From Candidatus Eiseniibacteriota bacterium (GTDB taxonomy: Bacteria; Orphanbacterota; Orphanbacteria; Orphanbacterales; Orphanbacteraceae): a stretch of DNA of 64,000 bases. How positions within the stretch are numbered: the stretch's first letter is position 1; the number at the start of each line of letters is the position of its first letter. The translations under genes were made by a program, and so were the position numbers. The stretch is taken from positions 310,001-374,000 of the forward strand of contig JAJCZU010000003.1 in the NCBI GenBank assembly GCA_029262235.1. Reading direction: 5' to 3'. This document shows positions 55,075 through 61,564 of this stretch, piece after piece. A model generated the notes under the pieces. It was not told the DNA's origin. It worked only from the letters and a program-made list of their open reading frames with translations, and made no database searches.

Positions 55075-56535
55075 TTGCGTTTCGTAATGCTCTCGGTTTC
55101 TCTGCTTGTACTGAGTGCGGCGTCGGCCGTGGCGTCGGCTTCGATCGAACTCGTTGCTTCCGGACTGAACCGCCCGATTTATGCAACGGCCCCAGCGGGG
55201 GACGACCGGCTCTTCATCGTCGAACAGCGCGGCCGCGTATTCGTGCTGGAGGCGGACACCGTGAACGCGGATCCGTTTCTGAATATCGATTCGCTGGTCG
55301 TCAATGTGAATTCGTTCAGCGAGCAGGGGTTGCTCGGAATGGAATTCGCGCCCGACTACGACTCGACGGGCTACTTCTACGTGCACTATTCGAACCTCAG
55401 CGGGAACACGGTGATTGCGCGCTACACCGTTGACGCCGGCAACCCGAACAAAGCCGACCACTCATCGGCCGAGATCGTCCTGACGGCCACCCAGCCATTT
55501 GCGAATCACAACGGCGGTTCGATCGCGTTCGGGCCCGACGGCTATCTGTACATCGGGCTCGGCGACGGCGGCTCCGGCGGCGACCCCGGGAATCGGGCGC
55601 AGACACTGACCACGCTTCTCGGAAAGATACTGCGAATCGACGTCAGTACGCTGCCCTATACGATCCCGCTCGACAATCCGTTCGTCGGCGATTCCACCGC
55701 GCTCGACGAGATCTGGGACTACGGTCTTCGCAATCCGTACCGGTTCAGCTTCGATCGGCTGACCGGGGATCTCTGGATCGCCGACGTCGGCCAGGAGACG
55801 TTCGAAGAAGTCGATGTCGAAGCGTATCCGAGTACGGGCAAGCGGAACTACGGCTGGAGGCTCATGGAAGGATTCAGCTGCTACAATCCGGGCGCCAACT
55901 GCGGTTCGGACACGCTGGACCTCCCTGTCTACGTCTACAACCACGGCGCCGGCTGTTCGATCACCGGCGGTTACGTGTATCGCGGCACGGACGTGCCCGA
56001 ACTTTACGGGAAGTACTTGTTCGGCGATTTCTGTTCCGGCTTCGTGCGTGCTATTACGATCGACACCGACACGACGGTCGAAGCTCTTACGAGCCAGCTG
56101 AACCCGAACTTCCCGAACAACATCGGAAGCCTCGCTTCGTTCGCCGAAGACGGATTCGGCGAGATGTACATTATCGATCGGGCCAGTACCAATAGCGGCG
56201 AGGTGTACAAGATCGTGCAGGATCCGACGACCGTCGGCGACACCGAAGACTCGCGTTCCGTGCTGCGACTCGGACGACCCGCGCCGAATCCGACGACGGG
56301 ATCGACGCAGCTGCGGCTCTTCCTTGACCGGCGGGCGGACGTACTCGCCACCGTGCACGACATCGCCGGCCGGCGCATTCGCACACTGACGCACGAAGTC
56401 CGCGGCGCGGGCGAATCGCTTCTCGAGTGGGACGGACGCGACGAAAGCGGCGCGCGCGTCGCCTCCGGTGTCTATTTCATCGGAGCGAAAGTCGACGGGC
56501 AGGAATTCAAGCAACGCGTTACGCTGGTGCGCTGA
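55075..56535 (+). CDS. secreted PQQ-type sugar/sorbosone dehydrogenase-like propeller with FlgD-like CTD
   Basis: 486 residues from the TTG at 55075 (GGAGG 6 nt upstream); the ATG at 55090 would be too far from that site. The signal peptide ends SAVASA. Residues about 25-370 form a six-bladed GSDH/HHIP-type propeller: GLNRPIYATAPAGDDRLFIVEQRG, LLGMEFAPDYDSTGYFYVHY, NHNGGSIAFGPDGYLYIGLGDGG, EIWDYGLRNPYRFSFDR. The last 85 residues are PAPNPTTGSTQLRLFLD ... ASGVYFIGAKVD ... QRVTLVR, the same C-terminal domain as the other secreted proteins. Whether it binds PQQ or oxidises sugars is unproven. Confidence 0.9.
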   Translation: MRFVMLSVSLLVLSAASAVASASIELVASGLNRPIYATAPAGDDRLFIVEQRGRVFVLEADTVNADPFLNIDSLVVNVNSFSEQGLLGMEFAPDYDSTGYFYVHYSNLSGNTVIARYTVDAGNPNKADHSSAEIVLTATQPFANHNGGSIAFGPDGYLYIGLGDGGSGGDPGNRAQTLTTLLGKILRIDVSTLPYTIPLDNPFVGDSTALDEIWDYGLRNPYRFSFDRLTGDLWIADVGQETFEEVDVEAYPSTGKRNYGWRLMEGFSCYNPGANCGSDTLDLPVYVYNHGAGCSITGGYVYRGTDVPELYGKYLFGDFCSGFVRAITIDTDTTVEALTSQLNPNFPNNIGSLASFAEDGFGEMYIIDRASTNSGEVYKIVQDPTTVGDTEDSRSVLRLGRPAPNPTTGSTQLRLFLDRRADVLATVHDIAGRRIRTLTHEVRGAGESLLEWDGRDESGARVASGVYFIGAKVDGQEFKQRVTLVR

Positions 56536-56539
56536 GTTG

Positions 56540-56618
56540 GCGGCGGGTCCTGTCGCGCCGCGACACCCCTGCCTCGGCAGGCTCGGCAGGGGTCCCCGTC
56601 CGGCGCGCCACCCGCCGC
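56540..56618. repeat. nested GC-rich inverted repeat (cruciform/hairpin)
   Basis: Three stacked perfect stems: GCGGCGGGT (56540-56548) with ACCCGCCGC (56610-56618); CGCGCCG (56554-56560) with CGGCGCG (56601-56607); ACCCCTGCC (56565-56573) with GGCAGGGGT (56585-56593), loop 11 bases. It begins 5 nt after the stop codon of the dehydrogenase-like gene. There is no U-tract, so it may act as mRNA 3' stabiliser or cruciform target rather than an intrinsic terminator. Confidence 0.75.
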
Positions 56619-56633
56619 AATTCCGCGCATCAG

Positions 56634-56765
56634 CTTCGCGAAGTGGAGGAGCCGGATCAGAGCCCGGATCGGATTCCCCTCGCCCCTCGTCCTGGCGTAC
56701 GGCCAATGGGCCTCGGGGCTCGGGGAACCGATCCGGGCTCGCGGTTCTCGCCTTTTTTCGCGAAG
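56634..56765 (+). repeat. structured dispersed repeat, copy A
   Basis: Core 56674-56729 contains CCTGGCGTACGGCCAATGGG. It is enclosed by a long inverted repeat, GAGCCCGGATCGG-a-TTCCCC (56660-56679) with GGGGAA-CCGATCCGGGCTC (56722-56740), 19 pairs with one bulged A. CTTCGCGAA (56634-56642) and TTCGCGAAG (56757-56765) mark the outer ends. Confidence 0.75.
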
Positions 56766-57107
56766 GAAAGAAGAAGGGCGGGTGATGGGTTGGTCCAAAC
56801 TCGCGGGCAATCGGTTCAGCACTCCCTCTTCAAATCAGTTTCTTAATTCATGAATAGATATTCATCCGTGTATGCTTGGCGGAAGAAAGACCATGAAGTG
56901 ATCGTGTTTCGAATTGATTTCAAAACTCGGTGCGAAGTTCAATGAACCATGTCCGATCGCCAACGCTCACTACGGACTCCTCCACCCACTTCCCGTTCGA
57001 TTTTCAAGCCTGCTGCCGTTCCTGGCGCAATGGCGCGCGCCGGTGCCCGCGGAACGCTAGCCGTCCGCCCCCCGTCATTCCCCTCCGGATTCCTCACGGC
57101 GAGGAAG

Positions 57108-57172
57108 TCGAGTTCCCGAAGCCCTGAGCCCCATTGGCCGTACGCCAGGGCGAAGGGCGGAGGGAATTCGAC
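57108..57172 (-). repeat. structured dispersed repeat, copy B (inverted relative to A)
   Basis: On the - strand it reads TTCCCTCCGCCCTTCG, then CCTGGCGTACGGCCAATGGG, then a GGGAA arm. It matches copy A over about 56 bases with roughly nine differences. GTCGAGTTCCC (57108-57118) pairs with GGGAATTCGAC (57162-57172), 11 positions with one G-U-type mismatch. The stem sequence outside TTCCC/GGGAA differs completely from that of copy A yet still pairs. Confidence 0.75.
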
Positions 57173-57199
57173 GACGAGTTGGGAATTCGACGACGAGTT
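57162..57199. repeat. 19-bp tandem duplication
   Basis: GGGAATTCGACGACGAGTT occurs twice head to tail (57162-57180 and 57181-57199). It duplicates one arm of copy B and ends at the stop codon of the STAS gene. Confidence 0.85.
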
Positions 57200-57534
57200 T
57201 AGATTCCCGAGGCCGCCTCGTCGGCTGTCGGGAAGATCTTCATGACGGTCGAGAGTCGGACGATATCGAGCAGTTTCCTGAGGGAAGCGGGGGGGCTCGT
57301 GAAGCCGACTTTGGCGCCGCCGCCTTCTGCTGAGGTGATGATCGACGCGAGAATGCCGAGGCCGGTGCTGTCGGAGTCGTTCACTTCGCCGAGGTCGATC
57401 ACGATCTTCTTCTTGCCGTCGGCGATCTCTTTGCGCACGGCTTCGAGCACGTTGTAGCCCGTAGGCTGCCCCCGGAGATTGCCGTGGAGTTCGAATACGA
57501 GAGCGTCTCCGCTCTCCCGCGTTTCGTATTTCAT
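57199..57534 (-). CDS. orphan STAS-domain anti-sigma-factor antagonist
   Basis: A 111-residue SpoIIAA/RsbV-like protein: DALVFELHGNLRGQPTGYNVLEAV, KKIVIDLGEVNDSDSTGLGILASIITSAE with Ser56/Thr57 at the phospho-acceptor site, and a C-terminal helix pair. AAGGCC lies before the ATG at 57534. Unlike the STAS gene at 19794 it has no kinase or phosphatase next to it; it could be a second substrate for the module at 20.2-22.4 kb or serve a distant one. Its 3' end abuts the 19-bp tandem duplication of repeat copy B. Confidence 0.88.
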   Translation of the reverse strand: MKYETRESGDALVFELHGNLRGQPTGYNVLEAVRKEIADGKKKIVIDLGEVNDSDSTGLGILASIITSAEGGGAKVGFTSPPASLRKLLDIVRLSTVMKIFPTADEAASGI

Positions 57535-57800: not shown

Positions 57801-58850
57801 TTGAGCGCCAACGTCGTTAAAAGACTGCACCTCGTCGAGGTCGACCCTCTACTCATCTACGGTCACCGGGACCAGTTCCTGCGCCATATCCAAGATGCGT
57901 TCCCGCACGTGCAAATCGTGGCACGCGGCGCCGACATCTATCTGGAAGGGGCGGCGGCTGCCGTGGGGAGCGTGGAGGGCCTGTTCCTCGATCTCACCTC
58001 TCTCGCCAAGCAGGGAAAAGAACTGTCGGATACGGATATCCGCTATTTCACCGAGATGGCTCAGGAGCAAGGGGGAAGCGACATCTCACAGCTTTACGCA
58101 CCGAAGAAGCAGTATTTCCATCTGAAGAAGCAGGTGAAGCCGAAAACGCTGGGCCAGGAGGAATATATCCAGGCGATGGATCGTTCGGACATCGTCTTCG
58201 GGATCGGGCCCGCGGGGACGGGGAAGACGTATCTTGCTGTGGCGGCGGCGGTTTCGGCGCTCAGGCGTCGCGAAAAAAACCGGATCGTGCTCGTACGGCC
58301 CGCCGTGGAGGCGGGGGAGAGTCTCGGCTTCCTGCCGGGGGATTTCCAGGAGAAGGTGGACCCGTATCTCCGGCCGCTGTACGATGCTCTGCAGGATCTT
58401 CTCGGAGCCGACCGGATCCGCCGGTCCTTCGATATGGACATTGTCGAGGTGGCGCCGCTCGCCTACATGCGCGGCCGCACGCTGAACGACGCGTTCGTCA
58501 TCCTCGATGAAGCGCAGAACTCGACGATCGGACAGATGAAGATGTTTCTGACCCGCCTTGGTACGAACTCGCGCGCCGTGATCACGGGCGACGTCACGCA
58601 GATCGATCTGCCGGACGCGAACGAGTCCGGGCTCGTACGCATCCAGCCGATTTTGCAGGACGTCCCGGGGATCGAATTCGTGTACCTGACGCCGCGTGAC
58701 GTGGTGCGCCATCATCTCGTGCAGCGCATTATCCGCGCGTTCGACGATCACACGATGGGCGAAGCGAGCGCGCGCGCGGAGCAGAGCGGTCGCGACCGGG
58801 GACAGAAGACGGGCCTCCCCAGGGGCGGGGCCAAGGGCAAGCCGGAATAA
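57801..58850 (+). CDS. phoH: PhoH-like ATPase
   Basis: 349 residues from the TTG at 57801, the only start codon downstream of the promoter at 57725-57753; AAAGGGG precedes it at a long 13-nt spacing. An in-frame GTG at 57738 would add 21 residues unlike the family. The ATPase domain has Walker A GPAGTGKT (136-143) and Walker B AFVILDEAQNST, with the N-terminal KH-like region before it. PhoH/YbeZ proteins are ATPases linked to RNA metabolism and to YbeY. pgpH follows after 4 nt and ybeY after that, the widely conserved order. Confidence 0.92.
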   Translation: MSANVVKRLHLVEVDPLLIYGHRDQFLRHIQDAFPHVQIVARGADIYLEGAAAAVGSVEGLFLDLTSLAKQGKELSDTDIRYFTEMAQEQGGSDISQLYAPKKQYFHLKKQVKPKTLGQEEYIQAMDRSDIVFGIGPAGTGKTYLAVAAAVSALRRREKNRIVLVRPAVEAGESLGFLPGDFQEKVDPYLRPLYDALQDLLGADRIRRSFDMDIVEVAPLAYMRGRTLNDAFVILDEAQNSTIGQMKMFLTRLGTNSRAVITGDVTQIDLPDANESGLVRIQPILQDVPGIEFVYLTPRDVVRHHLVQRIIRAFDDHTMGEASARAEQSGRDRGQKTGLPRGGAKGKPE

Positions 58851-58854
58851 CGCA

Positions 58855-61146
58855 ATGAAGATCTTCCCGTTCCAGAACAAACGGAATGTCCGCGGTAAAT
58901 CGAAGCGCGGCAAAGAGGGTGAGAAGAAGGGGTGGAATCTCCATCGCCTGAAAGCGCTCACCCGCATGCACGGGAAGACGCTGCGCCGCCTCGCGATCGG
59001 CGCGGCTCTCGTATCCATCATAATGGTCCTGTATATGCCCCGCTCCACGAGCAAGGGACTGCTTCTCGCCGAGGGCCAGATCGCGAAGGAGAACATCCTC
59101 GCGCCGTTCGACTTCCCCGTTCTGAAGGGCGATGACGAACTCGACAAAGAGCGTTCGCTCGAGGCGCGCAAGGTGCTTCCGGTCGTACGCGAGAGCGAGG
59201 AAACGACGCAGTCGATCAAGAATCGCGTGCGCGATTTCTTCCTGCAGGTGGAAGCGATCATCGACGAAGACGTCGTGCCTGCGGAACGGCAGAGCCGTCT
59301 TTCGGAACTCGAAGGCGACTTCACGGAGTCCGCCGGCATGGTCCTGCTGGACCTGGCGAACGAAACGCGCCTGCGCCAGGAGGTCGTGCGCTTCCTGGAC
59401 GAGGTCCTGGCGCGTGGCGTGCTGACGGACAAGAAAGTGTTCGAAGAGGCCGACTACAATCGCCTGTCTGTCATTCGGGACGGCGAGGAATACGCGCTCG
59501 GCCTCGATCGCTTCCTGGACCTCGACGAGTACTACGCGGCCGCGACGGAGTGGGGCCGAACGGCGTTCGGAACGCGCCAGGAGCTCGTTGCCTCGTTCTT
59601 CGAAGTGAGCAAGCAGTTCGGCGAAGCGAACCTTTTCTACGACGTCACGGAAACCTCCGCCCGCAGAGAGGCGCGCCGGGCGGGCGTTTCGCCCTACACC
59701 GAGCTCTACCTCAAGGACCAGAAGATCATCGGCGCGCACGAACGCGTGACGAAGCGTCATATGCGCATTCTCGAGTCGATGGAGTCGAAAGTGAGCGAGG
59801 AGCGCCTCGAGGCGAAGCCGTGGAAGCGCGTCTATCCGCACTTCGGCCGGCTGCTCACGCTGCTTGCCGTGATGGTGCTGTTCGTCTTCTTTCTACAGCG
59901 CAATCGCCCGAAGATCTACGCGCGCGACAGCCATCTCATTCTGCTCGCGACGGTCGCGCTGATGGGCTTCGTGCTCACGTTCTTTATCAACCGGCTCGAT
60001 CTTTCGCCGTTTCTGATGCCGATCGTGCTGATCGCGATGCTCGGGACACTGCTGTTCGACGATCGTGTGGGTATGTCGCTTTCGGGTACGTATCTGATCT
60101 GTGTCGCGCTCCTCGAGGGACTCACGCTCCCGGTCGCGTTCACGATGGGGATCGTGGGCGCCACGGCCGTGTACGGCGTTTCGGGGCTGCGCGAACGGAA
60201 GAGCTTCTGGATTTCGCTCGCCTATATCGGCGCCGCGTACATCGTGGCGATCGCCGCGGCGGATTTTCTGCACCTCGTGCCGAGTGTCGACACACTGCAG
60301 AAGATCGGGTACGGGCTGCTCTCGGCATTCGTCTGCGCGGGGCTCACGATGATCGTGCTGCCGCTGTTCGAATCGCTTTTCCGCGTTACGACGAACATTA
60401 CGCTGCTCGAGCTTTCGGATCTGAACCAGCCGCTGCTGAAGAACCTCTCGCTGTTCGCACCCGGCACGTACCATCACTCGATCATGGTCGGGAACCTGAG
60501 CGAAGCGGCGTGCGAACGGATCGGGGCGCATTCGCTGCTGGCGCGTGTGGGCGGCTACTATCACGACATCGGAAAGATGTCGAAGCCCGAATACTTCGTC
60601 GAAAACCAGATCAGCGGCGTCAACAAGCACGACAAGCTTTCGCCCAAGATCAGCGCGCTCATTCTGATTTCCCACGTGCGCGAAGGCGTCGAGATGGGAC
60701 GCAAGGAAGGGCTGCCGGACGAGATCATCGATGCGATCGGCGAACACCACGGCACCACGCTGATGGCGTTCTTCCATGACAAGGCGATGAAGACTTCGCC
60801 GTCCGAGGTGCAGGAATCCGACTTCCGCTACCCGGGTCCGCGGCCACGGACGAAAGAAAACGCCGTGATCATGCTCGCGGACGTGTCCGAGGCTTCCGTG
60901 CGCGCCCTGAACGAACCGACGCCGGCGAAGATTCGCCAGCGCATCGAACAGGTGACGCGCGCGAAGTTCGACGAGAAACAGCTCGACGAATGCGCACTCA
61001 CGTTCCGCGACCTTCGGCTGATTCAGGAGAGCTTCATCCCGATCCTGACCAGTTCCATGCATTCCCGTATCCGTTACCCTGACGAAACCAAATCGGAGGA
61101 GGCTCGACTAGCCGTTGGAGATTACCTGCGAAAACCTGCTCGATAA
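58855..61146 (+). CDS. pgpH: PgpH/YqfF-type 7TM HD-domain cyclic-di-AMP phosphodiesterase
   Basis: 763 residues from the ATG at 58855, 4 nt after the phoH stop. A basic N-terminus and one helix (about 42-60) are followed by the extracytoplasmic 7TMR-HDED domain (about 70-325: VLPVVRESEETTQSIKNRVRDFF). Seven helices follow (about 330-505), then the HD domain with APGTYHHSIMVGNLSEAAC and GGYYHDIGKM (His570/Asp571) and EHHGTTLMAFF. Characterised Firmicute members hydrolyse c-di-AMP to pApA. No diadenylate cyclase gene is in view, so nucleotide specificity here is by homology. It overlaps ybeY by 32 nt. Confidence 0.93.
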   Translation: MKIFPFQNKRNVRGKSKRGKEGEKKGWNLHRLKALTRMHGKTLRRLAIGAALVSIIMVLYMPRSTSKGLLLAEGQIAKENILAPFDFPVLKGDDELDKERSLEARKVLPVVRESEETTQSIKNRVRDFFLQVEAIIDEDVVPAERQSRLSELEGDFTESAGMVLLDLANETRLRQEVVRFLDEVLARGVLTDKKVFEEADYNRLSVIRDGEEYALGLDRFLDLDEYYAAATEWGRTAFGTRQELVASFFEVSKQFGEANLFYDVTETSARREARRAGVSPYTELYLKDQKIIGAHERVTKRHMRILESMESKVSEERLEAKPWKRVYPHFGRLLTLLAVMVLFVFFLQRNRPKIYARDSHLILLATVALMGFVLTFFINRLDLSPFLMPIVLIAMLGTLLFDDRVGMSLSGTYLICVALLEGLTLPVAFTMGIVGATAVYGVSGLRERKSFWISLAYIGAAYIVAIAAADFLHLVPSVDTLQKIGYGLLSAFVCAGLTMIVLPLFESLFRVTTNITLLELSDLNQPLLKNLSLFAPGTYHHSIMVGNLSEAACERIGAHSLLARVGGYYHDIGKMSKPEYFVENQISGVNKHDKLSPKISALILISHVREGVEMGRKEGLPDEIIDAIGEHHGTTLMAFFHDKAMKTSPSEVQESDFRYPGPRPRTKENAVIMLADVSEASVRALNEPTPAKIRQRIEQVTRAKFDEKQLDECALTFRDLRLIQESFIPILTSSMHSRIRYPDETKSEEARLAVGDYLRKPAR

Positions 61147-61564
61147 GTTCGCCATCGACACCGAGTCTTTCCGGAACATCGCCGCACAGGTCTTAGGGGA
61201 ACTCGCTGACCCCGAAGGGGAAGCGAGCGTCGTCTTCGTTTCGGATGAACGGATTCGCGAACTGAACCGGGAATATCGGAACAAGGATCGCCCGACGGAC
61301 GTGCTTTCCTTCAGTTTCTACGATGACCCGACGAGCCCCGGTATAATTGGAGACGTTTACATTTCACTGCCGACGGCGCTCCGCCAGGCGGAAGAGCGCG
61401 AGATGGCGCTGGAAGAGGAACTGCTGCGACTCATGATTCACGGACTGCTGCATCTTGTCGGCCATACGCACGACGCGGAGGAAGATACCGCGCGCATGCG
61501 GGCCCGCGAAAACGAATTCTTCGACGCCCACTGGCCCTCACTCGAGGAGCGGACGGCGTCATGA
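61115..61564 (+). CDS. ybeY: endoribonuclease/rRNA maturation factor YbeY
   Basis: A 149-residue protein starting at the TTG at 61115; GGAGGAGG lies 12-13 nt upstream inside pgpH. The zinc motif H-x3-H-x5-H is MIHGLLHLVGHTHD, and REYRNKDRPTDVLSFSF is the other family signature. YbeY is a single-strand RNase needed for 16S rRNA 3' maturation and ribosome quality control. It is the third gene of the phoH-pgpH-ybeY operon, and its stop overlaps the next ATG (ATGA). Confidence 0.95.
   Translation: MEITCENLLDKFAIDTESFRNIAAQVLGELADPEGEASVVFVSDERIRELNREYRNKDRPTDVLSFSFYDDPTSPGIIGDVYISLPTALRQAEEREMALEEELLRLMIHGLLHLVGHTHDAEEDTARMRARENEFFDAHWPSLEERTAS

Follow-up and report, generated by a model that had tools for sequence, protein, structure and literature searches.

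Among described bacterial repeats, the REP and REPIN sequences (GTAG and CGTC super-families) come closest to the hairpins reported here. In the parts of PMC3733652 on which we draw, they are dispersed extragenic palindromes with more than 100 places per genome that are found near the ends of genes, in convergent as well as tandem regions, occur in pairs of opposite orientation and form species- or genus-specific families; the same parts describe CGTC REPs, too, without a known transposase. REPs can shield mRNA against exonucleases, according to the cited portion of PMC12306157. The present family shares the dispersal, the copy number, the location near gene 3′ ends in convergent and tandem regions, the pairs in opposite orientation and the restriction to one genus. 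Its build is unusual for a REP-like family, with a conserved core, arms made at the locus, nesting and placement in sense at 3′ ends. REPs measure 20 to 40 bp, whereas the hairpins here are longer, about 65 to 120 nt, with a conserved part of about 56 to 120 nt in the alignments and the arms extra, and unlike REPs the family joins a conserved core to long, locus-specific paired arms and stands sense to the upstream gene. No GTAG or CGTC tag was seen by eye beside the hairpins in our alignments A1 to A3.

Three other systems share part of this description. MITEs and small palindromic mobile sequences, such as the Rickettsia palindromic elements, are likewise non-coding, palindromic and dispersed, with lineage-specific copy numbers, and inverted termini are present in the hairpins, but their arms differ in every copy. 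Intrinsic terminators are also G+C-rich hairpins past a stop codon; the family differs from them in its 20-nt conserved core, in the lack of a general U-tract enrichment and in copies that stand beside an existing terminator. The repetitive hairpin elements of sponge mitochondria are recurrent and intergenic, with large differences between close relatives (PMC2800124); they differ in being mitochondrial, the cited part of that work describes no gene-orientation rule for them, and no shared sequence is known. A literature search judged by titles and the starts of abstracts brought up work on REPs, REPINs and template switching but no description of this hairpin family, which does not prove that none exists.

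Three hairpins between convergent genes

The window, which is the whole 64,000-nt stretch of DNA that was analysed, corresponds to G000:C3:310001-374000, where G000 is the source genome (4.47 Mb, 95.5% complete). Convergent GSDH (+) and STAS (-) genes enclose three hairpins, one of subfamily VI and the two copies A and B, with the following features.

55087-56535, + strand: upstream gene of A, glucose/sorbosone dehydrogenase (GSDH, PF07995) with a C-terminal FlgD_ig domain (PF13860)
56540-56618, + strand: third hairpin, of subfamily VI (GCGGGTCCTGTCGCGC ... GCGCGCCACCCGC), located after the GSDH stop codon and before copy A
56660-56740, + strand: copy A, subfamily I hairpin with 13-bp perfect outer arms, 124 nt past the GSDH stop
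56691-56710, + strand: invariant 20-base core of copy A
57107-57172, - strand: copy B, subfamily I hairpin with 5-bp outer arms, directly past the STAS stop
57130-57149, - strand: invariant 20-base core of copy B
57162-57199, - strand: two 19-bp tandem copies of the B 5′ arm
57199-57534, - strand: upstream gene of B, STAS domain (PF01740)

Copies A and B are each sense to, and behind, the gene on their own strand. The core, CCTGGCGTACGGCCAATGGG, is identical in both (0 mismatches). As 100 dinucleotide shuffles of the window contained no core match even at 3 mismatches, chance was rejected as its source. The two copies align at 85% over 60 nt, in agreement with the roughly 47 of 56 shared bases that an earlier note, made from the sequence of this DNA alone, had counted. 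The arms of A (GAGCCCGGATCGG, 56660-56672, and CCGATCCGGGCTC, 56728-56740), those of B (GTCGA, 57107-57111, and TCGAC, 57168-57172) and the TTCCC/GGGAA joint in both copies are as that note described them, and the tandem duplication that it saw in the B arm is a perfect repeat (57162-57180 and 57181-57199). Its reading of this duplication as a recent rearrangement did not hold, because in the sister species the ortholog of B has this tandem repeat too, in an 11-nt form (AACTCGTCGTC twice). In this sister species (G001, the only further genome of this genus in the comparison), copy B is present at the same place and copy A is missing from the orthologous place. A run of genes for PhoH, a 7TM-HD phosphohydrolase and YbeY adjoins the STAS gene (57801-61564).

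No Rfam family was found in the window, where weak matches in 56400-57300 all scored under gathering. An Rfam identity was thus rejected, and the earlier note, too, had not recognised the family.

A dispersed hairpin family in one genus

With up to 2 mismatches allowed, the core occurs 17 times in the source genome and a reversed control pattern 0 times, and among the 41 genomes searched it is present only in the source genome and in same-genus G001. A search of the genome and its relatives, as proposed in the earlier note, thus revealed a dispersed family in two species. Matches in Gammaproteobacteria bin.62 and Nitratireductor HKST-UBA64 (2 of the 4 in named genomes) have no flanking arms and were set aside as chance or coding; viral spread was rejected, the pattern being absent from viral contigs.

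Covariance-model counts are lower bounds, because 150 of the first-look candidates were scored per genome (there were 3710 in the source genome). The A1 model (subfamily I), built from 16 copies and used at a threshold of E <= 0.1, marks at least 77 places in the source genome and at least 17 in the sister species, the A2 model (subfamily III, about 120 nt) at least 47 and at least 20, and the A3 model (subfamily II, R3) at least 88 and at least 4. These sets partly overlap, and their union in the source genome comes to at least about 121 places. Five more genomes from the same family, which make up the rest of the phylum as examined here, gave 0 places with the A1 model (150 candidates scored in each). 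In the cited part of PMC11323493, the name JABDJQ01 is used for an uncultured lineage of phylum level close to Eisenbacteria and Latescibacterota, to which the window probably belongs. The short arm sequence of subfamily VI has 22 matches in the source genome, 25 in the sister species and 1 in G006. A mini-form, CCGGATTCCCTCCGG, considered as a common progenitor, has just 4 matches in seven genomes (2 in the source genome, 1 in the sister species and 1 in G003).

At least four subfamilies (I, II, III and VI) have a common design of conserved core and variable paired arms. The A1 alignment shows an invariant core and asymmetric internal loops. Subfamily III holds a variable stretch of 40 to 50 nt within the hairpin, between its two conserved halves (e.g., C4:814430; loci are given as contig and position in the source genome). 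At several sites, the left arm and a truncated 5′ part of the core are repeated directly upstream of a full copy, as if a polymerase had restarted at the hairpin (C7:1924, C8:73779, C2:345207, C8:381172, C6:308705, C10:120479 and window positions 57162-57199). Long polypurine tracts of the GGAAGAG type lie downstream of many copies, before the next gene (e.g., L020 and L072).

Subfamily II copies form short tandem arrays with a spacing of about 130 to 175 nt, twice as two arrays facing each other (C8:128925-129335, C7:123712-124524, C8:381172-381959, C4:4924-5173, C3:631719-631959 and C6:72-310). Some of these arrays lie where a contig ends, which may mean that the repeats interrupt the assembly. 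The attC sites of integrons are likewise structured and located behind stop codons; no conserved attC-like GTTRRRY box was found, judged by eye, and the spacing of the arrays is too short for gene cassettes.

Genes were called with a purpose-made codon-usage caller. Ten of the 77 subfamily I copies are at contig ends and 4 are inside called genes; with at least 121 places in the genome, the family consists, like REPs, of high-copy extragenic palindromes. Of the remaining 63, 43 have as their closest gene boundary the stop codon of a gene on the same strand, at a median distance of 31 nt; 15 are nearest to a start on the opposite strand, 3 to a start on their own strand and 2 to a stop on the opposite strand. 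The own-strand gene is the nearer one for 28 of the 29 copies in convergent intergenic regions, and neighbouring copies less than 700 nt apart are mostly facing (23) or on the same strand (19), with one pair back to back. This position and orientation suggest that the hairpins form the 3′ ends of transcripts, although the 15 of 63 copies nearest the start of an opposite-strand gene are a counterpoint to this reading.

U-tracts (at least 6 T of 8) follow 8 of 73 copies, versus 10 of 73 by the antisense measure. This absence of enrichment indicates that most copies are not classical terminators, even though single loci, such as C2:405486, do combine hairpin and U-tract in sense orientation. At C8:67796/67508, both copies are missing from the sister species and the ordinary terminator between them is conserved in both genomes, indicating that the copies there are not needed for termination.

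Sister-species sites and the making of arms

A and B are members of a dispersed, non-coding hairpin family that is confined, among the genomes examined, to one genus. We consider it probable that this is a REP-like family of 3′-end hairpins, built of a conserved core with arms of the locus, that spreads at the DNA level. Each copy would fold into a strong and long hairpin within the 3′ untranslated region of an mRNA, in sense as in REPs, and its most likely role would be to block 3′ exonucleases, to serve as an accessory terminator, or both. A new copy would seat the conserved core on the tip of the hairpin that follows a gene. The arms outside it would be native to the locus, being either the stem of a hairpin or terminator that was there before or the gene-proximal flank copied in inverse, and as they belong to the locus they would differ between copies yet pair within each.

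The earlier note had proposed two causes for the differing but pairing stems, RNA-structure selection and a palindromic element that takes up new arms. The second fits better, in that cores are found at the tips of hairpins which have another tip, or none, in the sister species. Sites were located there with 28 joined flanks. At C2:405486, the source genome has the core and retains a U-tract; the sister species has an ordinary terminator there, which resembles it in stem base and U-tract but has AAAGGGCCGGATTCCCTCCGGCCCTTTTTTT in place of the core. At C8:333535, the arms of a subfamily VI hairpin enclose a subfamily I copy and the sister species has plain VI; C3:90687 is occupied by subfamily I in the source genome and by VI in the sister species. 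The sister species has III nested in a subfamily-I-like hairpin at C6:308705 (L053/L155), and III instead of the source-genome type at C6:133833. The copy at C8:8127 contains an additional mini-hairpin, nested and about 22 nt long, that the sister species lacks; at C4:1010136, no hairpin copy was seen in that species. Remnants such as CGGATTCC in the sister species at C2:258025, C7:169935 and C4:1218863 indicate that loss is possible there, and at most sites that species could have lost tips rather than the source genome gained them. At the start of G001:C577 (L123), a tandem 12-mer, CCGAATTCCCCT, stands where the source genome has a subfamily II copy.

The arms might have arisen by DNA template switching (fold-back copying), in which the gene-proximal flank is inversely copied on the far side of the core. 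Template switching can create and repair hairpin stems, according to the cited part of PMC8794818. At C4:769250, the sister species has a shorter hairpin and the source genome 11 extra nucleotides whose reverse complement matches the left flank of the same copy at 10 positions (mean of other copies, 4.3; maximum, 7), an inverse copy of that flank. An insertion in the sister species (L159) matches the opposite arm with a score of 13, against a mean of 4.7. Left arms are recognisable at 6 of 11 sister-species sites and right arms at 2 of 11, but this asymmetry may be due in part to the conserved gene being near. Among 7 internal insertions found on comparing ortholog pairs, just 1 has the pattern, and the clustering of double changes sought as a mark of template switching did not appear (0 v 1.5 and 2 v 2.2 expected). 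Judged from these sequences, the mechanism would fit single loci; as a general account of the arms, we hold it to be possible but doubtful.

Arm covariation, spread and role

A second alternative is a functional structured RNA, such as a 3′-UTR regulatory motif, whose stems are kept by base-pairing selection. The sense orientation behind stop codons and the invariant core and the asymmetric internal loops are in its favour, as is strong covariation among copies, for which the earlier note had proposed a covariance model. In the A1 alignment, 37 compensated cells were counted against 15.7+-3.3 after shuffling, a number reached by 0 of 500 shuffles; in A2, there were 48 against 14.8+-3.8. The other copies, like A and B, have different arms that pair, as the description of a structured repeat in the earlier note implied. 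After 5 of the 77 copies were dropped (contig ends and one partial copy), 41 of the 72 left had arms that paired better with each other than did left and right arms in mismatched combination, and the sequence outside the model is unique to each copy on both sides. The covariation and this pairing of the arms count in favour of the REP-like reading as well.

Orthologous copies speak mostly against such selection. We examined 21 copies of the sister species, 17 of which have a source-genome copy at the same place and orientation (2 of these of another subfamily), and counted changes from both sides in the 15 same-subfamily pairs. Single changes broke pairing in 191 cases and kept it in 53. There was some excess of double changes that keep a standard pair (59 of 107, against 40.8+-4.7 expected), but it hinges on the reference species (24/59, p 0.15, with one; 33/58, p 2e-4, with the other). 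Selection at the RNA level would make G-U commoner than A-C; the two are about equal both among standing arm mismatches (100 v 90) and among the arm changes that separate orthologs (45 v 48). The conserved stems were also compared for strand asymmetry, which was uninformative because it is not independent between copies. Copy numbers also differ widely between the sister species. Since most arms decay between orthologs and G-U is not in excess of A-C, the arms look as if they were fixed at the birth of a copy and then mostly decayed, rather than being maintained by RNA-level selection. The first of the causes proposed in the earlier note is weakened by these counts, and we regard a structured RNA of this kind as unlikely.

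It is similarly improbable that the hairpins are REPs/REPINs or MITEs of the classical kind, mobilised by a RAYT or another transposase. Their extragenic 3′-end position and facing pairs resemble those of REPs as described in the cited parts of PMC3733652, and copy numbers are subfamily-specific, as for R3 (at least 88 and at least 4). However, neither Y1_Tnp (PF01797, RAYT) nor reverse transcriptase (PF00078) had a match in the source genome at its 95.5% completeness, unlike what is expected of RAYT-linked REPs, and an element borne by either enzyme within that genome was rejected; the lack of a visible terminal tag and the locus-specific arms argue in the same direction.

A bolder version of DNA-level spread, to which we give little credence, is that the core would make its own arms: it would settle past a stop codon or on the tip of a 3′ hairpin, and the gene-proximal flank would be copied inversely on its far side without a dedicated transposase or reverse transcriptase, so that every copy would be a long hairpin made of flank sequence from its host gene. 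That the core belongs to a conserved protein-coding frame, as the translation of both A and B as LAYGQW-x-SGL could suggest, has next to no chance of being right and was rejected, since the core length varies by 1 to 3 nt between copies, so that no frame is kept, and just 4 of 77 copies are inside called genes.

Returning to the reading that we prefer, a REP-like family with a core at the tips of locus-borne hairpins, it occurs in a phylum-level uncultured lineage and in a genome in which no RAYT was found. Covariation among paralogous hairpins is commonly interpreted as a sign that RNA structure is under selection. In this family it occurs together with arms that, for the most part, decay from one ortholog to the other, which calls for caution in structured-RNA discovery, and the comparison of G-U with A-C changes provides a test that separates RNA-level selection from DNA-level stem making. 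The family also constitutes a natural, genome-wide set in which the birth, nesting and decay of hairpins can be compared in two close species.
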